From Actinomadura physcomitrii (GTDB lineage Bacteria > Actinomycetota > Actinomycetes > Streptosporangiales > Streptosporangiaceae): 64,000 nucleotides of DNA. The stretch is taken from positions 1-64,000 of the forward strand of contig NZ_WBMS02000008.1 in NCBI RefSeq assembly GCF_008923205.2, in the 5' to 3' direction. This document shows, piece after piece, positions 11,931 through 25,006 of this stretch; positions within the stretch are counted from its first letter, which is position 1, and each line of letters opens with the position of its first letter. A program made the translations under genes and the position numbers. The notes beneath the pieces were generated by a model. That model had not been told where the DNA came from. It searched no databases and saw only the letters and a program-made list of their open reading frames with translations.

Positions 11931-13198
11931 CGCGGCCGGATCCGTCGGACGCCCCGTCCCCCCGGGAGGGCGGGCGCGCCGGGATGTCCCGGCGCCGGAT
12001 GCTCGGGTTCTCCGGCGCCAGCCTGCTGGTCGGCGCCGCGGCGGGAGCCGGCCTGGACCGGGTCGCCTCCGCCGACACCGGCGGCACCGACGCCGCCGCC
12101 GCGGTGCCCTTCTACGGCGCGCACCAGGCGGGCATCGCCACCGCCGTGCAGGACCGGCTGCACTTCGCCGCGTTCGACGTCACCACGGGCGACCGGGGCA
12201 GGCTCGTCCAGATGCTGAAGGACTGGACGAAGGCCGCGGCCGACATGACCGCCGGGCGGGCCATCGGCGACGGCGCGATCCCCGAGATCGGCGTGGCGCC
12301 GCCGGACGACACCGGCGAGGCCCTCGGCCTGCCCGCGTCCCGGCTGACGCTGACGATCGGGTTCGGCCCGTCGCTGTTCGACAAGGACGGCAAGGACCGG
12401 TTCGGGATCAAGGCGCGGCGCCCCGCGGCGCTGGTGGACCTGCCGCACTTCTCCGGCGAGAACCTCGACCCCGACCGCAGCGGCGGCGACATCTGCGTGC
12501 AGGCCTGCGCGGACGACCCGCAGGTGGCGGTGCACGCCATCCGCAACCTGGCGCGGATCGGGATGGGCGTCGTCGCCGTCCGCTGGTCGCAGCTCGGGTT
12601 CGGCAAGACGTCCTCGACGACGCCGGACGCGCAGACGCCGCGGAACCTGTTCGGGTTCAAGGACGGCACGGACAACATCGGCACGAACGACACGGCGCTG
12701 CTCGACAAGCACGTCTGGGCGGCCGAGGGCGACGGCTCGGACTGGATGGCGGGCGGCTCCTACCTGGTGGCGCGCCGGATCCGCATGCACATCGAGATCT
12801 GGGACCGGACGTCGCTGCAGGAGCAGGAGGACGTCTTCGGCCGCACCAAGTCCGAGGGCGCGCCGGTCGGGGCGAAGAAGGAGCGCGACAAGCCCGTCCT
12901 GGCGCGGATGAAGCCGGACGCGCACGTCCGGCTGGCGCATCCCGACTCCAACGGCGGCGCGCGGATCCTGCGGCGCGGCTACTCCTTCACCGACGGCTCG
13001 GACGGGCTGGGGCGGCTGGAGGCGGGGCTGTTCTTCATCGCCTTCCAGCGCGACCCGCGCACCGGCTTCATCAAGATCCAGGAGTCGCTGGCCGCGGACG
13101 CGATGAACGAGTACGTCCAGCACGTCGGATCGGGGATCTTCGCGTGCCCGCCCGGCGTGAAGGAGGGCGGCTACTGGGGCGAGACCCTGTTCGCCTAG
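11927..13198 (+). CDS. efeB: EfeB deferrochelatase/DyP-type heme peroxidase
   Basis: A 423-residue Tat-exported dye-decolourising peroxidase. The twin-arginine signal is SRRRMLGFSGASLLVGAAAG at residues ~20-40. The DyP signature GFKDGTDN carries the catalytic distal Asp. The segment RRIRMHIEIWDRTSLQEQE carries the conserved proximal His ligand region, and a C-terminal LEAGLFFIAFQRDPRTGF block completes the heme pocket. EfeB proteins oxidise iron or heme substrates at the outer membrane face, feeding EfeO/EfeU. The start ATG overlaps the efeO stop (ATGA), so the two are translationally coupled and share iron-box control. Confidence 0.93.
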   Translation: MTRPDPSDAPSPREGGRAGMSRRRMLGFSGASLLVGAAAGAGLDRVASADTGGTDAAAAVPFYGAHQAGIATAVQDRLHFAAFDVTTGDRGRLVQMLKDWTKAAADMTAGRAIGDGAIPEIGVAPPDDTGEALGLPASRLTLTIGFGPSLFDKDGKDRFGIKARRPAALVDLPHFSGENLDPDRSGGDICVQACADDPQVAVHAIRNLARIGMGVVAVRWSQLGFGKTSSTTPDAQTPRNLFGFKDGTDNIGTNDTALLDKHVWAAEGDGSDWMAGGSYLVARRIRMHIEIWDRTSLQEQEDVFGRTKSEGAPVGAKKERDKPVLARMKPDAHVRLAHPDSNGGARILRRGYSFTDGSDGLGRLEAGLFFIAFQRDPRTGFIKIQESLAADAMNEYVQHVGSGIFACPPGVKEGGYWGETLFA

Positions 13199-13241
13199 GG
13201 GTCCGCCTAGGGCTCGCCTCAGGGTTCGGCGTGGGCGGCTC

Positions 13242-14492
13242 TCAGGAGCCGCCTCCGGCGCGTTCGGAGCGGATACGGGTCACCACGTCGCCGGCGGCCG
13301 TTCTGATGGACTCCAGCTCCTGCAGGTAGGCCCAGTAGTCCGGGTGCGCGCCGGTGAGCCGCTTCGGCGCGTGCTCCAGCCGCTCCACCAGGGCGTCCAG
13401 CGCGCGCGCATGGTGCGGGGCGGCGCCGCCGGGCTGCGCCATGGCGAGGCGCTGCGCGTCCCGCACCGCGAACCGGGCGCTCTCGACCGGCTTGTCGGGG
13501 TCGGCGGCGACCGCCTCCAGCTCCGTCACCCGCCCGGTGACCTGCCCGGCGCGCCGGTCGGCCCCGTTCAGCTCGGTGCGCGCCGCCGTCAGCGCCTGCT
13601 GCGCCTGCTTCCACTCGGCGCGCCCCGCGAACGCAGCGGCCTCGTTCAGCCGCTCGCGGGCCCGCTCGACGCCCGCCTCGACCGCCTCCGGCGCGCCCCG
13701 CAGGTCCTGCCAGCAGGCCTGCGAGTAGGCGCGCAGCAGCACCTTCATCGCCTCCCGGACGGGCCCGGCGCGGTTCGCCACGACGTCCACGCGGGTGCGG
13801 ACCGAGGCGAGCGAGTTGCGCACCTTCTCCGCCATCTTCGGCAGCTCCTCGGCCGCCAGGCGGGCGCTCTCGGCGATCATGCGCACCTCGTCGGCCTTGC
13901 GCATCGCCCCGTCCAGCCCGAGCCCGCCGAGCCCCTGCGAGCTCAGCAGCGCCAGGGCCTCCTTCGCGCGCGCCAGCTCCGCCTCGGGGTCGGCGGCGTC
14001 CATCCCGGCCGCCCGCGCGGCCTGCACGGCGGACTCGGCCGCCGCGACGGCGTCCCGGGCGGCGGTGAGCCGCGGCGGGAGCTGGTCGAGGGCCGCCTCC
14101 AGCCGCGCCATCCGCGGCGCGAGCCGCTCGGCGAAGCCGTTCAGGTTGCGGGTGATCTGCTGCAGCCGCTCCGTGGACGCCAGGAACGCGCGGCGCGCCG
14201 CGTCGTACTCGGCGGGCGACCGGTCCCGGTCATCGAGGTCGTGCGCGTCCAGGACGGCGATGTAGGCCACGGAGGCGGCGTCGGCGGCCTCCGCGAGCCC
14301 GGCGAACTCCCGCCGGACCGGCGCGGCGGCGGCCGCGTCCAGATCCTCGAAGACCGTGACGCGCCCGTCGAGGAACTTCTGCGCCTGGTCCATGTCGTAG
14401 AAGGCGGTGGCGGCCGCCTCGCGCGCCTGGATCGCCGCGTCGGCGGCCTGACCGCCCCTGCCGCGCCGCCGCTGGTCGCCCGGTCCCCGCAA
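13242..14492 (-). CDS. Alanine/arginine-rich coiled-coil protein beside the ter cluster
   Basis: A 416-residue protein made almost entirely of long amphipathic helices. It is rich in Ala, Arg and Glu with heptad character from about residue 20 to 405 and has no signal peptide or membrane segment. I do not recognise a catalytic motif. The start is a TTG at 14492, chosen because a strong AAGGGAGG ribosome site lies just upstream and no in-frame ATG fits. It is divergent from the first terD gene with a 156-base shared promoter region. The position suggests a structural or membrane-stress partner of the Ter proteins, as coiled-coil/PspA-like proteins are in other ter loci. That role is inferred from context only. 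Confidence 0.75.
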   Translation of the reverse strand: MRGPGDQRRRGRGGQAADAAIQAREAAATAFYDMDQAQKFLDGRVTVFEDLDAAAAAPVRREFAGLAEAADAASVAYIAVLDAHDLDDRDRSPAEYDAARRAFLASTERLQQITRNLNGFAERLAPRMARLEAALDQLPPRLTAARDAVAAAESAVQAARAAGMDAADPEAELARAKEALALLSSQGLGGLGLDGAMRKADEVRMIAESARLAAEELPKMAEKVRNSLASVRTRVDVVANRAGPVREAMKVLLRAYSQACWQDLRGAPEAVEAGVERARERLNEAAAFAGRAEWKQAQQALTAARTELNGADRRAGQVTGRVTELEAVAADPDKPVESARFAVRDAQRLAMAQPGGAAPHHARALDALVERLEHAPKRLTGAHPDYWAYLQELESIRTAAGDVVTRIRSERAGGGS

Positions 14493-14648
14493 CGCCGCCT
14501 CCCTTCGTCCTCATGCCCAGTCTCGCGCAGTCCCGGGCTTCTCGCGTAATGCGTCCACAACGGATGGAACGGATAGCATCGCTGCTGCGTCGATATAGCG
14601 AGACGCCTGCCCGGCGTCCGGTACGTCATGCGATCATGGAGGAACGCC

Positions 14649-15224
14649 GTGGGAGTCAGTCTCAGCAAGGGCGGCAACGTCTCGCTCACCAAGCAGGCCC
14701 CCGGCCTGTCGGCCGTGACGGTGGGCCTCGGCTGGGACCTGCGCACCACCACGGGCACCGACTTCGACCTCGACGCCTCCGCGCTGGTGCTGGACGCCTC
14801 CGGCAAGATCCTCACCGACCAGCACTTCGTCTTCTTCAACAACCTGCGGACCCCGGACGGCGGCGTCGAGCACACCGGCGACAACACCACCGGCGCGGGC
14901 GAGGGCGACGACGAGCAGATCAACGTGAACTTCGGCGCGATGCCCGCGCAGGCCGAGCGGGTCGCGTTCGCCGTGTCGATCTACGACGCCGACAGCCGCG
15001 GCCAGAACTTCGGGCAGGTCCGCAACGCCTACATCCGGGTGCTCAACCAGGGCGACCGGTCCGAGATGGCCCGCTACGACCTCACCGAGGACGCCTCCAT
15101 GGAGACCGCGATGGTCTTCGGGGAGCTGTACCGCAACGGGGCCGACTGGAAGTTCCGGGCGGTCGGCCAGGGCTACGCGTCCGGCCTCGCGGGCATCGCG
15201 ATGGACTTCGGCGTCAACATCTGA
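14649..15224 (+). CDS. terD: TerD family protein 1
   Basis: A 191-residue TerD-domain protein. The acidic calcium-binding motifs are clear: [16 protein letters not shown] near residue 37 and [20 protein letters not shown] near residue 77. The [20 protein letters not shown] block and the C-terminal [18 protein letters not shown] signature follow. TerD proteins are cytoplasmic calcium-binding beta-sandwich proteins linked to tellurite, phage and DNA-damage stress responses and, in streptomycetes, to development. The GTG at 14649 is preferred because GGAGGA lies six bases upstream. It begins a plus-strand run of ter genes and is closely related to the next gene, implying tandem duplication. Confidence 0.93.
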
Positions 15225-15258
15225 ACCACCTCTACCCCGGGAAGGGAGTGGCCCGAAC

Positions 15259-15837
15259 ATGGGGGTCTCACTCGCCAAGGGCGGCAATGTCTCGCTGACG
15301 AAGGCCGCGCCCAATCTGACCGCCGTCACCGTGGGCCTCGGCTGGGACGTGCGCGCCACCACCGGCGCCGACTTCGACCTGGACGCCTCCGCGCTGATGC
15401 TCGGCCCGTCCGGCAAGGTGATCTCCGACCAGCACTTCGTGTTCTTCAACAACCTGAAGAGCCCGGACGGCTCGGTCGAGCACACCGGCGACAACCTGAC
15501 CGGCGAGGGGGAGGGCGACGACGAGTCGATCAACGTCGACCTGACCGGAGTGCCGCAGGACTGCGACCGGATCGTCTTCCCGGTGTCGATCTACGACGCC
15601 GACAACCGGCAGCAGAACTTCGGGCAGGTCCGCAACGCCTTCATCCGGATCGTCAACCGGACCGACGGCAGTGAGCTCGCCCGCTTCGACCTGACCGAGG
15701 ACGCCTCCACCGAGACCGCCATGGTCTTCGGTGAGCTGTACCGGCACGGCGCCGAGTGGAAGTTCCGGGCGGTCGGCCAGGGCTACGCCTCGGGCCTCGC
15801 CGGCATCGCCATGGACTTCGGCGTCAACGTCGGCTGA
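15259..15837 (+). CDS. terD: TerD family protein 2
   Basis: A 192-residue TerD-domain protein, strongly similar over its whole length to the gene 34 bases upstream. It has the same [11 protein letters not shown] and [11 protein letters not shown] calcium-binding motifs, the same [20 protein letters not shown] block and the same C-terminal signature. It starts at ATG with a GGGAAGGGA ribosome site. Tandem TerD paralogues are usual in actinobacterial ter loci and may assemble as mixed complexes under the TerC-like membrane protein encoded next. Confidence 0.93.
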
Positions 15838-15895
15838 CGGCCGCCGCCGCCCGCCGGACGGCCGGTTCGGCCGTCCCTCTCAGAGAAATACGCTC

Positions 15896-17005
15896 ATGAT
15901 TCTTCGCACCTTCGGATGGGCCTTCGGCATCACCGTCCTCGGCCTTCTGGTCGCCGCCCTGTACGACGGGGGGACCGGGCTCGCCCTGGTCGCCGTCCTC
16001 GCCGTGCTGGAGATCTCGCTGTCGTTCGACAACGCCGTGGTCAACGCCAAGGTGCTGGACCGGATGAGCCCGTTCTGGCAGAAGATCTTCCTGACCGTCG
16101 GCATCGCGATCGCGGTGTTCGGCATGCGGCTGGTCTTCCCGCTGCTGATCGTCGGCATCACCGCCAAGCTGAACCCCTTCGAGGCGTTCGACCTGGCGCT
16201 GAACGACCCGCACAAGTACCACCACCTGATGAACGACGCGTACCCGATGATCGCGGCGTTCGGCGGGATGTTCCTGCTGATGCTCTTCCTGGACTTCGTG
16301 TTCGAGGAGCGGGCCGACAAGTGGCTGCCGTGGCTGGAGGCGCCGCTGGCGCGGATCGGCAAGCTCGACCAGCTGTCGGTGGTCGTCTCGGGCGGGGCGC
16401 TGGCGTTCACCGCGGGCCTGTTCGCCGACGACCCCGGCCAGGTCATGATCGCCGGTGTGCTCGGCATGGTCACCTACATCCTGGTGAACGGGCTCGGCGA
16501 GCTGTTCTCCGAGGCGACCGAGGACGACGACGAGGAAGGGGACGACGAGGAGGAGCGGGCCCCGGCGAGGTCCGGGCCGAGCTCGCTGGCGCTGGCCACC
16601 GGCAAGGCCGGGTTCTTCCTGTTCCTCTACCTGGAGGTGCTGGACGCCTCGTTCAGCTTCGACGGCGTGATCGGCGCGTTCGCGATCAGCACCGACCCGA
16701 TCATCATCGCGCTGGGCCTCGGCATCGGCGCCATGTACATCCGGTCGCTGACGGTGTTCCTCGTCCGCAAGGGCACCCTGCACGAGTACATCTACCTGGA
16801 GCACGGCGCCCACTGGGCGATCGGCGCGCTCGCGGTGTGCATGCTGGTCAGCATCGGCCGGCACGTCCCCGAGTGGCTCACCGGCGGGGTCGGCGCGGGC
16901 TTGATCATCGCCGCGTTCATCAGCTCCGTGGTGCGGAACCGGTCCGACGACGGCCCGGCCGCCTCGGCGGGCGACGACAAGCCGCTGCACTCCAGCAAGG
17001 TCTGA
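15896..17005 (+). CDS. TerC-like integral membrane protein (DUF475 family)
   Basis: A 369-residue polytopic membrane protein of the TerC/DUF475 group with about nine hydrophobic segments. Two intramembrane motifs typical of the superfamily are present in the two halves: EISLSFDNAVVNA near residue 45 and LDASFSFDGVIGAFAI near residue 250, each with an acidic residue proposed to coordinate metal. A highly acidic cytosolic loop near residue 210 (EDDDEEGDDEEE) could bind cations or contact TerD. TerC proteins are thought to be manganese or other metal exporters that organise a membrane complex with TerD and TerB. The gene lies 58 bases after the second terD and is probably cotranscribed. Confidence 0.88.
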   Translation: MILRTFGWAFGITVLGLLVAALYDGGTGLALVAVLAVLEISLSFDNAVVNAKVLDRMSPFWQKIFLTVGIAIAVFGMRLVFPLLIVGITAKLNPFEAFDLALNDPHKYHHLMNDAYPMIAAFGGMFLLMLFLDFVFEERADKWLPWLEAPLARIGKLDQLSVVVSGGALAFTAGLFADDPGQVMIAGVLGMVTYILVNGLGELFSEATEDDDEEGDDEEERAPARSGPSSLALATGKAGFFLFLYLEVLDASFSFDGVIGAFAISTDPIIIALGLGIGAMYIRSLTVFLVRKGTLHEYIYLEHGAHWAIGALAVCMLVSIGRHVPEWLTGGVGAGLIIAAFISSVVRNRSDDGPAASAGDDKPLHSSKV

Positions 17006-17194
17006 CCGGAGCAAGGTCCGACCAGAGCAAGGCCCGGCCGCGCGCGGCCGGGTCCCGAAGGGGCGGTGCGCCTCCGCACGGTGCACCGTCCGCCACCGCA
17101 TACCGTCCGCACCCGACACCCCCACCTCGCACTTCCGGATCCGCACCGTCTTGCACCCCGCGACGACCTATCATCAGCACCGAAGGAGCCGACG

Positions 17195-17773
17195 ATGACG
17201 ATTTCGCTGCAGAAGGGGCAGAAGGTCTCGCTGGCCAAGCCCGGCGGCGGCACCCTCACCCGGGTCAGGATGGGCCTCGGGTGGGACGCCGTCGCGAAGA
17301 AGGGACTGTTCGGCAAGGGCAAGGCCCAGTCGATCGACCTGGACGCGTCCTGCCTGCTGTTCGACGCGAGCGGCAACCTCGCCGACTCGGTGTGGTTCCG
17401 GCAGCTGCGCAGCAAGGACGGGTCCGTCCAGCACACCGGCGACAACCTGACCGGCGCGGGCGAGGGCGACGACGAGGTCATCAACGTCGACCTGCAGAGC
17501 GTCCCCGCGAACGTCACCCAGCTGGTGTTCACGGTGAACTCCTTCACCGGGCAGGACTTCTCGCAGATCGAGAACGCGTTCTGCCGGCTGGTGGACGAGG
17601 CGACCGGGCAGGAGATCGCGCGCTACGACCTCAGCGGCGCCGGGCAGCACAACGCGCAGATCATGGCGAAGGTGTCGCGGGACGGCGCGGGCTGGTCGAT
17701 GACCGCGATCGGCGCGACCGCGTCGGGCCGCACCTTCCAGCACCTGCTGCCCGCCGTGTCGGCGCATTTGTGA
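17195..17773 (+). CDS. TerD family protein 3, divergent (TerX/TerZ-like)
   Basis: A 192-residue TerD-fold protein distinct from the tandem pair. It keeps the SIDLDASCLLFDASGN and [20 protein letters not shown] calcium motifs. Residues ~28-38 carry a basic insertion (KKGLFGKGKAQ), and the C terminus ends QHLLPAVSAHL instead of the usual MDFGVNI. In the IYDAD position it has SFTGQDFSQIENAFCR, typical of TerX/TerZ-type members. An AAGGAG ribosome site precedes the ATG. It sits between the TerC-like gene and the enzyme genes, so it may link the membrane and metabolite parts of the system. Confidence 0.9.
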   Translation: MTISLQKGQKVSLAKPGGGTLTRVRMGLGWDAVAKKGLFGKGKAQSIDLDASCLLFDASGNLADSVWFRQLRSKDGSVQHTGDNLTGAGEGDDEVINVDLQSVPANVTQLVFTVNSFTGQDFSQIENAFCRLVDEATGQEIARYDLSGAGQHNAQIMAKVSRDGAGWSMTAIGATASGRTFQHLLPAVSAHL

Positions 17774-17871
17774 TCGGCGGGCATGCGCGACGCGGGAGGC
17801 GTCCGTGACGGCGATGCGCCGGTGCCCGCGCTGCCGCGATGACGCGGCGCTCAGGACGATGTGGGACGCGT

Positions 17872-19095
17872 ATGCGGCACTTTGACCATATTGACACCGC
17901 CTACCGGAAGCACCTGTTCTACCGCCATCCCCGCCCGTTCCGCCGGCACGACGACCCGGCGGTGCTGGCGGTGGCGCTCGGCGCGACGCTGTACTGCCCC
18001 GCCACCCGTCCCGCGCTCGCGGGCGACATCGAGAAGGCGGCGCGGCGCGGCGTCATGAGCATGGTCGTGTGCCTGGAGGACGCGATCGGCGACGACGAGG
18101 TGGCCGAGGCCGAGGACAACCTCGTCGCGCAGCTGCGGGACCTGCACGCCCGCGGCGCGGGCGAGCCCGAGCCGGACCGCGGCCGGCGCGCCGCGGGGGA
18201 GCGGGCCGGGGAGCGGTCCATCGGCGGTGTGCCGCTGCTGTTCGTGCGGGTCCGCGATCCACGGCAGATCGGCGACATCGCCGCCCGGCTGGGGCCCGCG
18301 GCCGGGCTGGTCAGCGGATTCGTGCTGCCGAAGTTCACGGCGTCGTCCGGTGGAGCGTTCCTCGACGCGCTGGAGGACACGGCCGCCCGCACCGGGCTGC
18401 CGCTGCTCGCGATGCCGGTGCTCGAGAGCCCGGAGACGGTGCACAGCGAGAGCCGCACCGAGGTGCTGCACGACGTGGCGCGGCTGCTGGCCAAGCACCG
18501 CGACCGGGTCCTCGCGGTGCGGATCGGCGCGACGGACATGTCGGCGGCCTACGGCCTGCGCCGCCCGCCCGACCTGACGATCTACGACATCCGGCCGGTC
18601 GCCGCGGCGATCACCGACATCGTCAACGTGCTCGGCCGCGCGGACGGCAGCGGCTTCGTGGTGACGGGCCCGGTCTGGGAGTACTTCTCGGCGGGGGAGC
18701 GGATGTTCAAGCCGCAGCTGCGGCAGTCGCCGTTCGAGGCGCAGCGGGCCGCGCCGCTGCGGCAGCGGCTCATCACCTCCGACCTGGACGGGCTGATCCG
18801 CGAAGTGCACCTGGACAAGGCCAACGGGCTGACCGGCAAGACCGTCATCCATCCGACGCATGTGGCGGCCGTGCACGCGCTGTCGGTCGTCACGCACGAG
18901 GAGTACTGCGATGCCGCCGACATCCTCGGGTACGCGGGCGGCGGCGCGATGGCGAGCTCGTACGCGAACAAGATGAACGAGGCGAAACCGCATCGCGCAT
19001 GGGCGGAGCGGCTGATGCTCCGCGCGCGCGTGTTCGGGGTGGCGGCGCGGGACGTGACGTTCGTCGAGCTTCTGGAAGCGGCGGGCAGCCGATGA
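17872..19095 (+). CDS. HpcH/HpaI aldolase/citrate lyase (CitE-like) protein of the ter module
   Basis: A 407-residue TIM-barrel protein of the CitE/HpcH-HpaI type. Visible elements are VVCLEDAIGDDEV (acidic metal/substrate site), LPLLAMPVLESPETVH (conserved Glu for Mg), AVRIGATDMSAAYGLRR and GKTVIHPTHVAAV. Such enzymes cleave or form C-C bonds on acyl or keto-acid substrates. In Ter-associated operons a CitE-like enzyme is a recurring member of a proposed nucleoside-like metabolite pathway. The ATG at 17872 is chosen over one at 17839 because it begins the conserved HFDHIDTAYRKHLFYR-type N terminus; the ribosome site is weak. The stop overlaps the next start (ATGA). Confidence 0.85.
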   Translation: MRHFDHIDTAYRKHLFYRHPRPFRRHDDPAVLAVALGATLYCPATRPALAGDIEKAARRGVMSMVVCLEDAIGDDEVAEAEDNLVAQLRDLHARGAGEPEPDRGRRAAGERAGERSIGGVPLLFVRVRDPRQIGDIAARLGPAAGLVSGFVLPKFTASSGGAFLDALEDTAARTGLPLLAMPVLESPETVHSESRTEVLHDVARLLAKHRDRVLAVRIGATDMSAAYGLRRPPDLTIYDIRPVAAAITDIVNVLGRADGSGFVVTGPVWEYFSAGERMFKPQLRQSPFEAQRAAPLRQRLITSDLDGLIREVHLDKANGLTGKTVIHPTHVAAVHALSVVTHEEYCDAADILGYAGGGAMASSYANKMNEAKPHRAWAERLMLRARVFGVAARDVTFVELLEAAGSR

Positions 19096-20477
19096 CGGTG
19101 CCTGACGGGACGGCGGTGTGGCCGGGGGCGTGGGTGACGTCCCGGCTCGGCGTCCGGCTGGTCGACGGCGAACGTCCGGTGGGCGCCGGGCTGGCGTCGA
19201 TGGTGGGGCTCGCCGTCCGCCGCAATCCGCGCCGCGCCCATCTGCTGGTCTCGGCGGTGCTCGGCAAGCACGTCCCGACCGATCCCCGGCTGGTGTACGG
19301 ATCGGGGCTGCTGCTGGGCGAGCTCGTGCGCGCGCGCCTGTCCGACGAGGTGACGTCCGTTCCGCCGGGTTCGCTGGAGGATGCCCTGGCGGGCGTGCCC
19401 GGCGCCGCGGCGGCATTGCGCGACGCGTTGCGGGAGCCGCGCCCGCATGTGGACGCCATCGTCCTCGGCTATGCGGAGACCGCCACCGCCCTGGGGCATT
19501 CGGTGGCGGACGCCCTGGGCGGCGCCTACTACCTGCACTCCACGCGCCGTCCGGTGCGCGGCTTCGCCGCGTACGGTGGGTTCGAGGAGGAGCACAGCCA
19601 CGCGACGAGCCATCTGCTGCTGCCGTCGGACCCCGCGGCGCTCGACCGGGACGTCCCGGTCGTGCTGGTGGACGACGAGCTGTCCACGGGGCAGACGGTG
19701 CTGAACACGATCGAAGCGCTGCACGCGCTGCGCCCGCGCGGGCACTACGTGCTGGCGGCGCTCGTCGACCTGCGCGGGGAGTCCGACCGCGCGCGCGTGG
19801 ACGAACTGGCCGCGCGGCTCGGCACGCGCATCGACGCCGTCTCCCTCGCCGCAGGACGGGTCGAGCTGCCGGGCGACGTGCTGGAGAAGGGCACGCGGAT
19901 CGTCACCCAGCTGTCCGCCGGCTCTAGTGCGGCCGGCGGGGGACGCGCGTTCGGCGTCGCGCGGATCGCGCTCGACTGGCCGGACGGCGTGCCCGACGGC
20001 GGGCGCCACGGGTTCCGGCCCGAGCACCGCGCCGCCCTGGAGAAGGACCTGCCGCGCATGGCCGACGCCGTCGCGGCGGAACTCGGGGACGGCGCGTCCC
20101 GCGTGCTCGTCCTCGGGTTCGAGGAGCTGATGTACGCGCCGCTGCGGCTGGCGGAGGCGCTCGCCGACGCGTCCCCGGGCCTGGACGTCCGGTACTCCAC
20201 GACCACCCGCTCGCCCGTCCTGGCCGTGGACGATCCCGGTTACGCGATCCGCACGCGGCTCGCGTTCCCGGCGCACGATGACCCGGCGGACGGCCCGGGG
20301 GAGCGGTACGCCTACAACGTCGCGCCCGCCGCCGGGCGCCCGCCGTTCGACCGCATCGTGTACGTGGTGGACGACGTCGGCGACACGCAGGGGCTCACCG
20401 ACGGGCTCCTTGCGCGCCTGCGCGCGCTCGCGCCCGTGGTGGTCGCGACCGTCCCGTCCCATGGGAGTGACCGGTGA
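19092..20477 (+). CDS. Phosphoribosyltransferase-like protein with C-terminal TRSP domain (ter module)
   Basis: A 461-residue protein. Residues ~110-290 form a PRTase fold with the PRPP-binding loop VVLVDDELSTGQTVLN, the acidic pair followed by a small-residue loop. Residues ~300-460 match the TRSP-type domain that follows Ter-linked PRTases, with a VLVLGFEELMYAPLRLAEAL block and YVVDDVGDTQG. In the Ter system these enzymes are proposed to transfer phosphoribose to an unidentified base or acceptor, giving a nucleoside-like stress metabolite. The ATG overlaps the preceding stop, and the stop overlaps the following GTG, indicating strict translational coupling. Confidence 0.85.
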   Translation: MTVPDGTAVWPGAWVTSRLGVRLVDGERPVGAGLASMVGLAVRRNPRRAHLLVSAVLGKHVPTDPRLVYGSGLLLGELVRARLSDEVTSVPPGSLEDALAGVPGAAAALRDALREPRPHVDAIVLGYAETATALGHSVADALGGAYYLHSTRRPVRGFAAYGGFEEEHSHATSHLLLPSDPAALDRDVPVVLVDDELSTGQTVLNTIEALHALRPRGHYVLAALVDLRGESDRARVDELAARLGTRIDAVSLAAGRVELPGDVLEKGTRIVTQLSAGSSAAGGGRAFGVARIALDWPDGVPDGGRHGFRPEHRAALEKDLPRMADAVAAELGDGASRVLVLGFEELMYAPLRLAEALADASPGLDVRYSTTTRSPVLAVDDPGYAIRTRLAFPAHDDPADGPGERYAYNVAPAAGRPPFDRIVYVVDDVGDTQGLTDGLLARLRALAPVVVATVPSHGSDR

Positions 20478-21586
20478 GGCCGCTGTACGGGCCCGATTTC
20501 GGCAGCTACGCGGCGGACGACGTCGCATGGCTGCTGAAGGACCTGTCGGACGCGCGGCTGGAGGCGCCCACGGAGGAGCGCGAGGCCGCGATCCAGGCGG
20601 GCCGCGCCCACTACGCCGAGTCGCTGCCCGTCGAGTACCAGCCGGGTCCGGAGTACCGGCGGCTGTTCCAGGAGGCGCTGGAGGCGTCCGCCGGACGGCT
20701 CGCCTACGCGACCGGCCTGGTCGCCGAGCAGATCCTCGCCGAGCGGGGCCCGGACGCCGTCGTGGTGTCGCTCGCGCGCGCGGGCACCCCGGTCGGGATC
20801 CTGGTGCGGCGCTGGGCCCGGTTCGCGCACGGGCTCGACCTGCCGCACTACGCGATCAGCATCGTCCGGGGCCGGGGCATCGACACCGTCGCGCTGGAGT
20901 ACCTGGCGGCTCGGTACGACCCGTCCGCGGTGATGTTCGTGGACGGCTGGACGGGCAAGGGCGCCATCACCCGCGAGCTGACCGCGGCGCTCGCCGGCAC
21001 CGGGTTCCCCGCCGACCTGGCCGTCCTCGCCGACCCCGGGCGCTGCACCTCGCTGCACGGCACCCGCGACGACTTCCTGATCCCGTCCGCGTGCCTGAAC
21101 TCGACCGTGTCCGGGCTGGTCAGCCGGACCGTCCTGAACGCCGAGCTGATCGGCCCCGGCGACTTCCACGGCGCGAAGTTCTACGCCGAGCTGGCCGGCG
21201 ACGACGTGTCGGCGCTGTTCCTCGACACCGTCTGCGCGCGCTTCGCGGACGTGGCGGAACGGGTCGCGAAGGACGCACCGGACCTGCGGGCGTCCGACCG
21301 TGCGCCCGACTGGTCGGGGTGGGAGGCGGTCCGCGGTGTCGCCGCCGAGCACGGCATCGACGACCTCAACCTGGTGAAGCCGGGCATCGGGGAGACGACG
21401 CGGGTGCTGCTGCGCCGTGTCCCATGGAAGGTCCTCGCGCGCGCGGACGCGGGCCCCGAACTGACGCACATCAGGCTTCTGGCAAGGGAACGCGGCGTGC
21501 CCGTCGTCGACGTCGAATCGGACCGTTTCCCCTACGCGTGCATGGGGCTCATCCACCCGCGCTTCGGCAAGGGGGCAGTCCAGTGA
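20474..21586 (+). CDS. StiP/PRTase-like protein of the ter module
   Basis: A 370-residue protein of the family annotated in databases as cysteine protease StiP but interpreted by comparative genomics as a PRTase-fold enzyme with a C-terminal PELOTA-like RNA-binding domain. Visible blocks include LPVEYQPGPEYRRLF, VVSLARAGTPVGILVRR, HYAISIVRGRGID and AVMFVDGWTGKGAITREL, where the last corresponds to the PRPP loop. Residues ~290-370 are the putative PELOTA region. The GTG start overlaps the preceding stop. Together with the preceding PRTase and the HAD protein it forms the conserved Ter biosynthetic core; the product is not known. Confidence 0.82.
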   Translation: MRPLYGPDFGSYAADDVAWLLKDLSDARLEAPTEEREAAIQAGRAHYAESLPVEYQPGPEYRRLFQEALEASAGRLAYATGLVAEQILAERGPDAVVVSLARAGTPVGILVRRWARFAHGLDLPHYAISIVRGRGIDTVALEYLAARYDPSAVMFVDGWTGKGAITRELTAALAGTGFPADLAVLADPGRCTSLHGTRDDFLIPSACLNSTVSGLVSRTVLNAELIGPGDFHGAKFYAELAGDDVSALFLDTVCARFADVAERVAKDAPDLRASDRAPDWSGWEAVRGVAAEHGIDDLNLVKPGIGETTRVLLRRVPWKVLARADAGPELTHIRLLARERGVPVVDVESDRFPYACMGLIHPRFGKGAVQ

Positions 21587-22392
21587 CCGCTCTGGTGTGC
21601 TCGGACCTGGACCGTACGCTCATCTACTCGCAGGCCGCGTTCGCGTTGGACGGCCCGGACGAGGCCATGCCGCGCCTCGTCTGCGTCGAGTTCTACCAGG
21701 GCGCCCCCCTCTCCTACATGACGGAGACCGCCGCGCGCACACTGGAGACCCTCGCCGCGTCCGCCGTGTTCGTCCCCACGACGACGCGGACACCGGAGCA
21801 GTACCGCCGCGTCCACCTGCTGGAGAAACCGCCCGCCTACGCGATCTGCGCCAACGGCGGCCACCTCCTCGTGGACGGCGAGGACGACCCGTCATGGTCG
21901 GCGTCCGTGCGCGCCCGCATCGCGGACGGCTGCGCGCCGCTCGCCGAGATCCAGGACCGCCTCGTCCGGACCGGCGGGGAGTTCGTCCTGAGAAGACGTA
22001 CCGCGTCCGACCTGTTCGCCTACACGGTCGTCGACCGGGCCGCACTCCCGCCCGGCTGGGTCGACGACCTCGCCGGCTGGTGCGCCGACCGCGGCTGGCG
22101 GACGTCCCTGCAGGGCCGCAAGGTCTATTGCCTGCCCGCCTGCCTCACCAAGGCCGCCGCCGCGGCCGAGGTCGCCCGCCGCACCGGTGCGTCCGCGCTG
22201 CTCGCCGCCGGCGACTCGCTGCTCGATACCGACCTCCTCGAGGCCGCCCACCTGGCGATCCGTCCCGCGCACGGTGAACTCCACGACGCCGGCTGGACGT
22301 CCCCGGCCACCGCCGTCACCGCGTCCCGCGGCATCGCCGCCGGCCAGGAGATCACGAACTGGCTGCTGCACCGGGTGGAAAATCACCACTGA
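21583..22392 (+). CDS. HAD-superfamily hydrolase of the ter module
   Basis: A 269-residue HAD phosphatase of the Cof/sucrose-phosphatase-like type. Motif I is CSDLDRTLIYS (nucleophile Asp and acid/base Asp), motif II is VPTTTRTPEQY, motif III is the Lys in CLTKAAAAAEV, and motif IV is AAGDSLLDTDLL. It probably removes a phosphate from the intermediate made by the two upstream PRTase-like enzymes. The GTG start overlaps the preceding stop, so the four enzymes CitE-like, PRTase-TRSP, StiP-like and HAD form one coupled translation unit. No ATP-grasp gene, common in sister loci, follows. Confidence 0.88.
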   Translation: MTALVCSDLDRTLIYSQAAFALDGPDEAMPRLVCVEFYQGAPLSYMTETAARTLETLAASAVFVPTTTRTPEQYRRVHLLEKPPAYAICANGGHLLVDGEDDPSWSASVRARIADGCAPLAEIQDRLVRTGGEFVLRRRTASDLFAYTVVDRAALPPGWVDDLAGWCADRGWRTSLQGRKVYCLPACLTKAAAAAEVARRTGASALLAAGDSLLDTDLLEAAHLAIRPAHGELHDAGWTSPATAVTASRGIAAGQEITNWLLHRVENHH

Positions 22393-22465
22393 CCCGCCCC
22401 GCCCGTCGACAACCGACGCCGCCCGGGGACTCGCCGGGGCCGCCGTCGCGGGTCACAATCACACT

Positions 22466-22494
22466 AGGACCCCGGCCCCGGCCGCGAGGAGGTA
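22466..22494 (+). promoter_or_regulatory. Promoter and ribosome site of the MGH1-like gene
   Basis: TAGGAC at 22466-22471 is a plausible -10, and GAGGAGGT ends at 22494, 11 bases before the ATG. This suggests that the glycosidase gene has its own promoter and is not strictly part of the ter operon. Confidence 0.45.
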
Positions 22495-22505
22495 CCCCTG
22501 CGCGC

Positions 22506-23825
22506 ATGAGCTCCCGTCTCACCGGCGACGAGACCGCCCTGTGGAAGGCCGCGGCCCGCGTCCTGGACGCGAACTGGACCGGGACCGCGACCGCCGCGTC
22601 GCCCGGCCTCTACCCCCACCAGTGGAGCTGGGACTCCGCCTTCATCAGCCTCGGCCTGGCCCGGCACCGCCCCGACCGCGCCGAGACCGAACTGCTGTCC
22701 CTCTTCCGCGGCCAGTGGGCCGACGGCATGCTCCCGCACATCGTGTTCAACACCCGCCTCGCCCGCCACGCCTTCTTCCCCGGCCCGGACCTGTGGCGCA
22801 GCACCGAGCAGCCCGCCGCGCCACACGGCGTGCAGACCTCCGGCCTCACCCAGCCGCCCGTCCACGCGCTCGTCGCCCTGCGCCTGCACGAATGCGCGTC
22901 CGACGGGGAGAGCAGCCGCGGCTTCCTCGCCCGCCTCTACCCGATGCTCGCCGCCCAGCACCGCTACCTCGCCACGGCCCGCGACCTCGGCTCCAGCGGC
23001 CTCATCGCCATCTGCCACCCCTGGGAGTCCGGCCTCGACAACAGCCCCGCCTGGGACCGCCCCCTCGGCGCCCTCCAGCTCCCGCCCACCGCCTACGCCC
23101 CCGCGCACCGCTCCCGCACCCTGCCCACCGGCGAGGACTACGACCGCTACGTCCGCCTCGTCGCTCTCATGCGCGAAGCCGGCTACCGGCCCGACTACCT
23201 GCGCGCATCCCACCCGTTCGCCGTCGAGGACCCGCTCGTCAACGCCACCTTCCTCGCCTCCGCGCACGCCCTCGCCGAGGTCGCCCGCATCGTCGGCGCC
23301 GACCCCGCGCCCCACCTGGAGGCCGCGCAGCGCGTCCACACCGCCCTCCTCGACCGCCTCTGGGACGCCGACACCGGCTGCTTCCGCGCCCGCGACCTGC
23401 GCGACGACCGGCTCCTGCCCGTCATCACCGCCGGGTCCTTCGGCCCCCTCCTCGACCCCGAACTGCCCGCCGCGCACGTCCGCAACCTCGTCGACCTGCT
23501 GCTGTCCGCCCGGTTCGCCGGAGCCGCCGGATACCCCGTCCCCACCTGCGACATCCAGGCGCCCGCGTTCGACCGCGGCGGCTACTGGCGCGGCCCCACC
23601 TGGGTCAGCACGAACTGGCTGATCTGGTACGGCGCCCTCGCCCACGGCCTGCCCGTCGTCGCCGACCTGCTGTACGGCTCCACGATGCGGCTCGTCCGCC
23701 AGTCCGGGTTCCGCGAGTTCTTCGACCCCTTCGACGGCACCGGACGCGGCAGCCACGACTACTCCTGGTCCGCCGCCCTCGTCCTCGACCTGCTCGGGGC
23801 CCGCCGCGCGCCGCAGGCCGCCTGA
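22506..23825 (+). CDS. MGH1-like (GH63-type) glycoside hydrolase
   Basis: A 439-residue cytoplasmic protein with an (alpha/alpha)6-barrel. Signature blocks are GLYPHQWSWDSAFISLGLAR near residue 35, CHPWESGLDNSPAWDRPLG near residue 175, and RGGYWRGPTWVSTNWLIWYG near residue 350, with SHDYSWSAALVLDLL close to the end. These match the mannosylglycerate hydrolase/glucosylglycerate hydrolase-like branch of clan GH63, where Asp and Glu residues in these blocks are catalytic. The substrate is probably an alpha-linked compatible solute such as glucosylglycerate, but this is inferred. There is no signal peptide. The gene begins 113 bases after the HAD gene and may have its own promoter. Confidence 0.82.
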   Translation: MSSRLTGDETALWKAAARVLDANWTGTATAASPGLYPHQWSWDSAFISLGLARHRPDRAETELLSLFRGQWADGMLPHIVFNTRLARHAFFPGPDLWRSTEQPAAPHGVQTSGLTQPPVHALVALRLHECASDGESSRGFLARLYPMLAAQHRYLATARDLGSSGLIAICHPWESGLDNSPAWDRPLGALQLPPTAYAPAHRSRTLPTGEDYDRYVRLVALMREAGYRPDYLRASHPFAVEDPLVNATFLASAHALAEVARIVGADPAPHLEAAQRVHTALLDRLWDADTGCFRARDLRDDRLLPVITAGSFGPLLDPELPAAHVRNLVDLLLSARFAGAAGYPVPTCDIQAPAFDRGGYWRGPTWVSTNWLIWYGALAHGLPVVADLLYGSTMRLVRQSGFREFFDPFDGTGRGSHDYSWSAALVLDLLGARRAPQAA

Positions 23826-23842
23826 TCGCCTACCGTTGGGGC

Positions 23843-24337
23843 ATGCGCCTACTCCGGGGCCACCTGCCCTCCGCGGTCCGCGACGCGCTCACGATCGAAC
23901 GCGGCGAGCGCGTCCTCGCCTCCGCCCCCACCCGCGGCGGTTCCCACGTGGTCGCGTCCACCACCGCCCTGCACCTGCCGGCCGCGTCCGGCGGCTTCGT
24001 CCGCATCCCGTGGGAGCGCGTCGACCAGGCCACCTGGAAGGACGGCTGGCTGCACGTCACCGAGACCTCCGGCGGCGCGGAGCACCACGTCCGCCTCACC
24101 GAGCCCGGCTCCGTGCCCGAGACCGTCCGGGAACGCGTCACCGCCACCATCGCCGTCACCCACCACGCGAAACTCCCGGGCGGCGGCAAGGTGCGCATCG
24201 CCGGCCGGCGCCCCGCCGGCGGCGGCGACGTGCGCTGGACGTTCGTCTTCGACGCCGGCCTCGACCCCGACGACCCGGGCCTGCGCGCCCAGGCCGAGCA
24301 GATCCTCGAGGACCTGCGCCGCCAGACGGGCCTCTAG
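23843..24337 (+). CDS. Conserved hypothetical protein
   Basis: A 164-residue soluble protein I cannot assign. It has a short helical start (LPSAVRDALTIERGERVLAS), a run of beta strands with SHVVASTTALHLP and FVRIPWERVDQATWKDGWL, and a C-terminal helix. The alternating strands resemble a PH-like barrel (small actinobacterial PH-domain proteins share the strand-then-WERVDxA pattern), so a binding rather than catalytic role is possible. TACCGT at 23831-23836 lies 6 bases before the ATG, implying a leaderless transcript. Its TAG stop shares the palindrome CTAG with the stop of the convergent gene. Confidence 0.75.
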   Translation: MRLLRGHLPSAVRDALTIERGERVLASAPTRGGSHVVASTTALHLPAASGGFVRIPWERVDQATWKDGWLHVTETSGGAEHHVRLTEPGSVPETVRERVTATIAVTHHAKLPGGGKVRIAGRRPAGGGDVRWTFVFDAGLDPDDPGLRAQAEQILEDLRRQTGL

Positions 24338-24621
24338 CCGGGGTGGACCGTCGGCTCGTCCTCGGCCTTGTGCCTGCCGGCGACCTTCTGCTGCGGCACC
24401 TTCTCCTTCGCGGTGGAGGCCATCTCGCCGGCCTTCCCGCGCGCCGCCCCGGCGAACTGGCCGCCCTTGGCGCGCAGCATGCCCGCGGCCTCCTGCACGT
24501 TCGGGTTCGCCGAGACCTGCCGCGAGAGCCTCTTGATCTGCTCGTAGCGCTCCCGCCCGGCTTTCGTCCCGAGGACGTAGCCGACCGCCGCGCCCGCCAT
24601 GAACATCATCCGCGACTTCAT
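24334..24621 (-). CDS. YtxH-like small membrane protein
   Basis: A 95-residue protein with an N-terminal hydrophobic, Gly-containing segment (MMFMAGAAVGYVLGTKAGRE) typical of YtxH proteins. A basic amphipathic helix and a Lys/Ala/Glu-rich tail follow. YtxH-type proteins are membrane-anchored general-stress proteins of unknown role. The ATG at 24621 is preferred because GGGAG lies 6 bases upstream and the protein then begins with its anchor. It is convergent with the preceding gene, and the two stop codons are read from opposite strands of the same CTAG. Confidence 0.78.
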   Translation of the reverse strand: MKSRMMFMAGAAVGYVLGTKAGRERYEQIKRLSRQVSANPNVQEAAGMLRAKGGQFAGAARGKAGEMASTAKEKVPQQKVAGRHKAEDEPTVHPG

Positions 24622-24762
24622 GATCAACTCCCTGTGGGGCCGTTCGATCCACCCCCTATACCCACGAAGGCCGCCGCCACCCGTAACGCGTGCGCGAACA
24701 GCCCCGCACATGCGCTAACCTAGACGCGCTGGCAGGGGCCCGAAGCCCCGCCGGACGCACGA

Positions 24763-24835
24763 TCCCGCGTAGCTCAATCGGCAGAGCAGCCGGCTGTTAA
24801 CCGGCAGGTTATTGGTTCGAGTCCAATCGCGGGAG
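24763..24835 (+). tRNA. tRNA-Asn (GTT)
   Basis: The sequence folds as a complete cloverleaf. The acceptor stem is TCCCGCG/CGCGGGA (24763-24769 with 24828-24834), the D-arm is GCTCAATCGGCAGAGC, and the anticodon stem is CCGG/CCGG around TGTTAAC-type loop bases with anticodon GTT at 24796-24798. The T-arm carries GGTTCGAGTCC, and the discriminator is G. The CCA end is not encoded. A strong hairpin follows 25 bases downstream. Confidence 0.96.
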
Positions 24836-24860
24836 CAGCTCAACACGCCTAAAGTCGCAG

Positions 24861-24896
24861 GTCAGGCCCGTTCCCTGTGCTGGGAACGGGCCTGAC
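24861..24896 (+). terminator. Terminator after tRNA-Asn
   Basis: A perfect 15-base-pair stem (GTCAGGCCCGTTCCC at 24861-24875 with 24882-24896) has a 6-base loop. It lies 25 bases after the tRNA and before the convergent dehydrogenase gene. The remaining 110 bases up to 25006 show nothing further. Confidence 0.88.
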
Positions 24897-25006
24897 TGCT
24901 GCCGGTGCACCTTCCCCGTGACCTGCGTCCGCTGCGCCTGACCAACAGAACAGCGCGATCTCGTCCAGCAGGCCACGGGTGCGGTCGGCGGCGGCCCGCG
25001 CCGGGT

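Follow-up and report, generated by a model that had tools for sequence, protein, structure and literature searches.

Ter-linked gene cluster of Actinomadura physcomitrii

The window analyzed here, positions 1 to 64,000 of contig NZ_WBMS02000008.1 of Actinomadura physcomitrii (assembly GCF_008923205.2; 64,000 nucleotides), contains a cluster of Ter-type genes that runs directly into a set of four enzyme genes. The eight genes lie on one strand in the order TerD, TerD, DUF475/TerC, TerD, C-C_Bond_Lyase, PRTase_2-TRSP, StiP-PELOTA and HAD phosphatase (PRTase, phosphoribosyltransferase), and were assigned as follows.

14649..15224, + strand: TerD-family protein 1, GTG start (Pfam TerD, 273.6 bits)
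15259..15837, + strand: TerD-family protein 2 (Pfam TerD, 289.5 bits)
15896..17005, + strand: TerC-superfamily membrane protein of the DUF475 branch (Pfam DUF475, 422.0 bits; TerC, 74.3 bits)
17195..17773, + strand: TerD-family protein 3 (Pfam TerD, 173.2 bits)
17839..19095, + strand: CitE-like C-C bond lyase (Pfam C-C_Bond_Lyase, 399.0 bits)
19092..20477, + strand: PRTase_2 phosphoribosyltransferase with a C-terminal TRSP domain (Pfam PRTase_2, 222.5 bits; TRSP, 135.3 bits)
20474..21586, + strand: StiP, a PRTase-fold domain followed by a PELOTA (L7Ae-like) domain (Pfam StiP, 346.6 bits; PELOTA_1, 106.4 bits)
21583..22392, + strand: HAD-family phosphatase (relative 6cj0, phmmer E 2.2e-8)

This layout had been proposed in an earlier reading of the sequence alone, and it is borne out by the Pfam families, by the relationship of the last product to 6cj0, and by all 22 loci compared from the genus. 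The same reading correctly described the last four genes as joined by stop/start overlaps, which are 4-base junctions at 19092-19095, 20474-20477 and 21583-21586. Its TerC-like gene is a member of the TerC superfamily, although the assignment is refined to the DUF475 branch; the product also scores 539.9 bits with NCBIfam NF010613 (cut-off 385). The lyase gene has an alternative start, an ATG at 17872. Pfam gives no match for the gene at 21583..22392, and motifs that we take to be those of HAD enzymes are seen in its product. No TerB, TerF or TelA gene was assigned in the cluster, a search at the cluster for a sigma-70-like promoter found none, and PADLOC-DB 2.0.0 gave no defense-system match for 10 proteins of the locus (E≤0.001).

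As the sequence-only reading had recognized, the locus corresponds to a module described by comparative genomics, the Ter-linked PRTase module, which excerpts of PMC7824862 present as making a nucleoside- or nucleotide-derived signal. Like the known Ter "signal biosynthesis" module, it brings TerD, TerC, PRTases and a HAD enzyme together in one locus; unlike that module, it has no ATP-grasp that could be found, its TerC is of the DUF475 type, and its enzymes are ordered lyase, PRTase_2, StiP and HAD. The observation is sound, and the module itself is of a kind already known.

Conservation of the cluster

StiP is present in 22 of 23 other sampled Actinomadura genomes, G017 being the one without it. 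The 22 loci fetched from these genomes all share the same order and strand, and this agreement extends beyond the eight genes to the two that flank them.

13242..14492, − strand: protein without an assigned family, divergent from the Ter genes, coiled-coil-like by eye only; no Pfam family above cut-off
22506..23825, + strand: MGH1-like glycoside hydrolase of uncertain module membership (Pfam MGH1-like_GH, 367.7 bits), beginning about 110 bases past the HAD gene; a glucosylglycerate-hydrolase model gives 349.9, below that model's cut-off of 550

The four enzyme genes occur in all 22 genus loci, with protein identities of 65-95%. One blemish in this set is L044, which shows two TerD genes only. 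In one Actinomadura the reading frame changes between PRTase_2 and TRSP, as seen in locus L047 (8206-9551) and in the named A. rifamycini locus L054 (8653-9998); the frame jump may be a natural split or a sequencing error.

A second set consists of 80 loci from named relatives; these are the best 80 of 555 and hence biased to close relatives, and the set shares some genomes with the 22-locus genus set, so that the two are not independent. StiP and the HAD gene are found in 80/80 of these loci, PRTase_2 in 78/80 and the lyase in 74/80, and the loci missing PRTase_2 or the lyase are short contigs. A homologue of the divergent gene (E≤1e-10) is present in 22/22 genus loci and 71/80 named loci; in Streptomyces it is placed downstream of the HAD gene. 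The glycosidase is found in 22/22 genus loci and 18/80 named loci, none of these 18 being from Streptomyces, and is conserved as a neighbor in the Actinomadura group only.

Among 296 genomes of Actinomycetes, including that of A. physcomitrii, StiP scores above cut-off in 74, and one further genome has a weak partial match. Thirty of the 74 belong to Streptomyces, a genus (g33 in our sample) identified as such because the nearest named StiP locus was from Streptomyces in all 16 of its genomes tested, two of them at 100%.

Distribution of the Ter-type ATP-grasp

The sequence-only reading had treated a Ter-type ATP-grasp (PF15632, ATPgrasp_Ter) as the usual partner of these enzymes, had seen it at neither end of the locus, and had suggested that the pathway may be shortened or completed elsewhere. 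No such gene adjoins the A. physcomitrii locus. Since PF15632 alone is unspecific, matching in 14 of 14 control genomes and above cut-off in 12, alignment profiles were also used. A search of the whole A. physcomitrii assembly, which is 97.9% complete, returned weak matches only: a single PF15632 match of 24.7 bits in a 1529-residue frame (cut-off 29.1), an E-value of 0.7 at best with the Enterobacter ATP-grasp protein, nothing at E≤1 with profile A2, and at best 35.2 bits, across half the model, with profile A3. The other 23 Actinomadura genomes gave no Ter-type ATP-grasp either (best 46.7 bits with A3, at most 52 first-look candidates scored per genome), which makes 0/24 for the genus. These whole-genome searches scored the best first-look candidates only, and the absence is accordingly strong, not absolute. 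A missing ATP-grasp is the rule in the sampled genus and not an anomaly of one strain. As far as these searches reach, the pathway is shortened in Actinomadura, and we find no sign that it is completed elsewhere in these genomes. The sequence-only reading had named its own test, an ATP-grasp that every relative with this layout can do without, and by that test the idea of a required partner gone missing falls for this genus.

A six-frame scan at E≤1e-3 found no ATP-grasp in the 102 actinobacterial StiP loci (22 + 80), in one Nocardia locus, or in the Vibrio and phage ME3 loci described below; four control loci scored at least 442 bits, but are themselves rows of the profile. Across the 296 Actinomycetes, A3 identifies 20 genomes at 438 bits or more, with the next genome at 87 (7 candidates scored per genome), a margin that arises partly by construction because A3 contains sequences from seven of the 20. 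Profile A2, built of gammaproteobacterial rows only, places the same 20 genomes first, the 20th with 67.7 bits in two pieces versus 62.6 for the next. Five actinobacterial ATP-grasp proteins that were scanned score 86 to 125 bits with Pfam ATPgrasp_Ter.

All 20 genomes are StiP-positive. The ATP-grasp is present in 20/74 genomes with StiP and 0/222 without it (Fisher p 1e-13), a value that overstates independence in that Streptomyces accounts for 15 of the 20 as well as for 30 of the 74; counted by genus, the figures are 5/17 and 0/89 (p 6e-5). An ATP-grasp was not found in the other 54 of the 74, and the view of it as the usual partner is not supported in Actinomycetes. In six Streptomyces genomes (G043, G077, G123, G143, G265 and G305) ATP-grasp and StiP lie on one long contig but megabases apart; in G086 roughly 1 kb separates the ATP-grasp from TerD and DUF475. 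Because the gene co-occurs with StiP and yet is distant or absent, we regard it as belonging with the pathway but optional and often unlinked in Actinomycetes, and it looks optional in the wider relatives.

Two neighbors of these genes were recorded in passing. An AIM24-family gene stands between ATP-grasp and TerD in G086 (L178:9321-10133). In three genomes of one family (L189, L194 and L183) ATPgrasp_Ter adjoins a same-strand GT20 (OtsA-like) gene, Pfam-tested in L189 and L183 and recognized by clustering in L194; this may be merely the housekeeping otsA locus.

The same data bear on whether the Actinomadura pathway is a degraded remnant left after loss of the ATP-grasp. Such a history would suit the three of four gammaproteobacterial plasmid loci that carry the gene, the comparable numbers of plasmid records matching StiP (2568) and ATP-grasp (2501; the overlap was not counted), and the frame jump inside PRTase_2 of L047. 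It is highly improbable, however, given the retention of all four enzyme genes throughout the genus loci at the identities reported above, and given that the 54 StiP-positive Actinomycetes, phage ME3 and the Vibrio locus are also without a found ATP-grasp.

The two phosphoribosyltransferase proteins

The PRTase_2 part models as an APRT-type type I phosphoribosyltransferase fold; the model has a predicted local distance difference test (pLDDT) score of 91.5, and its best match is APRT (Z 11.1, 3.1 Å, 176 residues). Its acidic phosphoribosyl pyrophosphate (PRPP) loop, VDDE..TG.T, is invariant in 48 sequences.

Pfam gives StiP (PF11202) the name of a cysteine protease. An alignment of 40 StiP sequences (34 actinobacterial, 4 from plasmid loci and 2 from viral contigs) contains no column with an invariant cysteine, the best columns having 36, 34 and 34 of 40, and the protease name is left unsupported, there being no conserved catalytic cysteine. 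The residues that are invariant in the 40 sequences are S99, R102-A-G, P106, R132, D137 and FVDGWT-KG-I. The AlphaFold2 model (pLDDT 89.1) matches PyrR and purine PRTases over residues ~55-250 (Foldseek; PyrR ranked first, E 2.3e-5; VIA-align Z about 9.5 with PyrR), and residues 283-363 match L7Ae-, YbxF- and L30e-type proteins (VIA-align Z 8.6 to 9.6). StiP thus models as a type I phosphoribosyltransferase fold joined to an L7Ae-like domain. Its top VIA-align match is the CriT region of Haemophilus influenzae type b (Hib) Bcs3 (8a0c residues 639-947; Z 11.0, 4.2 Å, 200 residues), and a sequence search with StiP gave no Bcs3 match at E≤1.

In many relatives the two proteins are one. Of 55 loci outside the Actinomadura group, 51 encode PRTase_2-TRSP and StiP-PELOTA in a single uninterrupted reading frame, as does the Nocardia locus, while the single frame is rare in the Actinomadura-group sets (1/22 and 1/19). 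The count derives from 61 loci, of which four have PRTase_2 cut by a contig end and two are without PRTase_2, leaving 55 that hold both. A looser test, in which the frame was traced solely from the end of TRSP, gives 55/59; the stricter figure was adopted. One locus, L100, is counted as one frame yet has a frame jump inside PRTase_2. Because they are fused in relatives, PRTase_2-TRSP and StiP-PELOTA can be taken to act in one process. The idea that TRSP is a degenerate third PRTase domain was also considered, and is unsupported (17.9% probability in a profile comparison).

The L7Ae-like domain raises the question of an RNA target, in which PELOTA would dock on kink-turn-like RNA while a base or a ribose is swapped or added there by the two PRTase domains, the output being a modified RNA. 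The structural matches just given, the Pfam PELOTA_1 assignment, and the covalent joining of PELOTA to both PRTase domains in the 51 fused loci are all in keeping with this. No RNA partner turned up, an Rfam scan of 13000-25000 giving only a tRNA and no RNA element within the cluster; free bases are the substrates of PyrR-like and APRT-like folds; and a lyase and a phosphatase suit small-molecule chemistry better. We consider an RNA target quite unlikely.

A related proposal makes StiP a regulator and not an enzyme, its PyrR-like fold sensing a nucleotide and binding RNA to attenuate the operon. PyrR proteins are indeed the best Foldseek matches of StiP, and an RNA-binding-type domain is present. 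The invariant PRPP-site-like residues and the fusion to another PRTase suit catalysis instead, and terminator-like sites in 14400-22600 are no more frequent than chance allows (2 found versus 1.5 expected), all of which renders a regulatory role very unlikely.

The HAD phosphatase

The HAD protein is 28% identical to Protein Data Bank (PDB) entry 6cj0 (E 1.6e-13). The HAD in the ter cluster of pPUV-8, a P. aeruginosa plasmid, is in turn 94% identical to this entry across 237 residues, and ter-cluster HADs on plasmids from E. cloacae and K. michiganensis are 36-39% identical to the same entry. Both 6cj0 and 6d3v, which we take to originate from P. aeruginosa, carry the name trehalose phosphatase in their deposition. 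Assays of a trehalose-6-phosphate phosphatase that is extrachromosomal in P. aeruginosa have been described, with discussion of Cys85 and Cys231 (PMC6838324, in excerpt), and the pPUV-8 HAD contains exactly two cysteines, at positions 85 and 231. At least one HAD of the Ter-cluster type has therefore already been handled as a sugar-phosphate phosphatase, and the cluster goes unmentioned in the excerpts of that paper.

Elsewhere in its genome A. physcomitrii has an otsB-type gene on contig C68, with a GT20 (otsA-type) gene ~7 kb away, and a second GT20 gene on C34. Because these genes exist, trehalose-6-phosphate is not an obvious natural substrate of the HAD protein, which is not needed as the organism's own trehalose-phosphate phosphatase.

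The HAD relationship and the StiP model together suggest another product, an O-ribosylated sugar or polyol in place of a nucleoside, with StiP acting like CriT and the HAD protein like CrpP of Bcs3. CriT takes phosphoribosyl from PRPP and places it on a hydroxyl, after which the HAD enzyme CrpP strips the 5-phosphate (PMC10299916, in excerpt); here too, a ribose-5-phosphate transferase of PRTase fold is paired with a HAD phosphatase. Bcs3 differs in being a capsule polymer enzyme and shows no detected sequence similarity, which limits the comparison to an analogy. O-ribosylation gains from the higher Z of the CriT match (11.0 versus about 9.5 for PyrR), from the trehalose phosphatase assignments, and from the glycosidase that comes after the HAD gene in Actinomadura. 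The Z gap is only about 1.5, however, Foldseek puts PyrR and purine PRTases first, the HAD protein has no required part in trehalose metabolism, and the glycosidase is not found in Streptomyces loci. We judge O-ribosylation unlikely.

Related loci on plasmids and phages

Four gammaproteobacterial plasmid loci were examined, and in three of them an ATP-grasp opens the gene set. The ter clusters of pEC-IMP (L025; IncHI2A-type) and P. aeruginosa pPUV-8 (L163) share with A. physcomitrii the PRTase, HAD, StiP and an aldolase/citrate-lyase-type gene, and the L025 StiP is 37% identical to that of A. physcomitrii. They differ in starting with ATPgrasp_Ter (Pfam), in their order (ATP-grasp, PRTase, HAD, StiP, lyase), and in lying on plasmids typed conjugative. 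The fourth, a Vibrio locus, has no ATP-grasp within its 21 kb, and contains PRTase_2-TRSP, StiP and the lyase. A three-enzyme minimum of PRTase_2, StiP and HAD was dropped because this locus has no recognizable HAD.

Viral contig L162 is Acinetobacter phage vB_AbaM_ME3, and encodes a TerF-like vWA protein, DUF475/TerC, TerD, PRTase_2 and StiP-PELOTA (Pfam), together with a HAD-like gene whose product is 24% identical to 6cj0 (E 5e-17). Its gene content agrees with PMC7824862, excerpts of which name PRTases and HAD enzymes in this phage. The ME3 module thus shares DUF475/TerC, TerD, PRTase_2, StiP-PELOTA and a HAD-like gene with A. physcomitrii; it differs in that at E≤1e-5 the record matches neither the Enterobacter ATP-grasp nor the A. 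physcomitrii lyase, and in that its PRTase_2 has no TRSP match. PRTase_2 and StiP are the only enzymes common to all loci examined.

A gene annotated as a trypsin-like peptidase lies between ATP-grasp and PRTase in pPUV-8 (L163:9072-10211). On another viral contig an open reading frame (L161:4877-6016) is likened to it by size and place alone.

A proposed pathway

We propose, with somewhat better than even confidence, that the locus is the Ter-linked biosynthetic module in a complete Actinomadura form, kept by vertical descent, with the chemistry set out here. The families, the model folds, the operon overlaps, the PRTase fusion in relatives and the ATP-grasp pattern bear on this directly; we infer that PRPP is used, on which substrate and in what sequence the enzymes act, what they make, how that is sensed, and whether stress sets it off. 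The four enzymes probably build a ribose-containing molecule. The CitE-like lyase would supply or trim a carboxylated carbon fragment, PRTase_2 and StiP would use PRPP in consecutive, channelled steps to give a phosphoribosylated compound, and the HAD protein would then remove phosphate. The ATP-grasp ligase would be an optional decoration added by some other bacteria and dispensed with by Actinomadura. The product would be read by TerD-type proteins, as excerpts of PMC7824862 propose for the Ter system, and would take part in a stress response together with the TerC-type membrane protein. Its trigger may be metal or phage stress, as the sequence-only reading supposed, and it may be a nucleoside or another ribosylated compound.

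Several observations weigh against this pathway. The PRPP-type loop of StiP, VDGWTGKG, holds one acid and not the pair that PRTases use (PMC10299916, in excerpt), and because of this single acid catalysis by StiP is not certain. The HAD step is not universal, since neither of the two small unassigned genes in the Vibrio locus resembles HAD, and the ME3 PRTase_2 is without a TRSP match. A shared ancestry of the PRTase_2, StiP and TRSP domains is not backed by comparison of their profiles. A sugar phosphate is suggested by the trehalose-6-phosphate phosphatase assignment of a related HAD. The limits given above for the genome-level association and for the absence of ATP-grasp count on the same side.

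Literature searches found no report of the product of the Ter module, and a search for TerD with Actinomadura returned no papers; among the matches listed, the only literature on the module's enzymes was PMC7824862, a jumbo-phage review, and PMC6838324, with the HAD as a trehalose-phosphate phosphatase. The module is nonetheless common, StiP being present in 74/296 Actinomycetes genomes and 2568 plasmid records. In the present analysis the core shared by the loci examined shrinks to PRTase_2 and StiP, the ATP-grasp becomes an optional member, the protease name of StiP is left without support, the two PRTase proteins prove to be a single chain in many loci, and the HAD protein gains a relative of solved structure. 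With the module more sharply defined, the question of its product becomes directly testable. One speculation, which we regard as decidedly doubtful, has the module producing a phosphoribosyl glycoside, such as an O-ribosylated sugar or polyol, or some comparably unusual ribosylated compound, by way of two channelled PRTase domains docked on RNA through PELOTA, with the HAD usual and the ATP-grasp adding an optional aminoacyl-like cap. Were this true, such a ribosylated non-nucleoside product would add a new class to the stress signals of bacteria.

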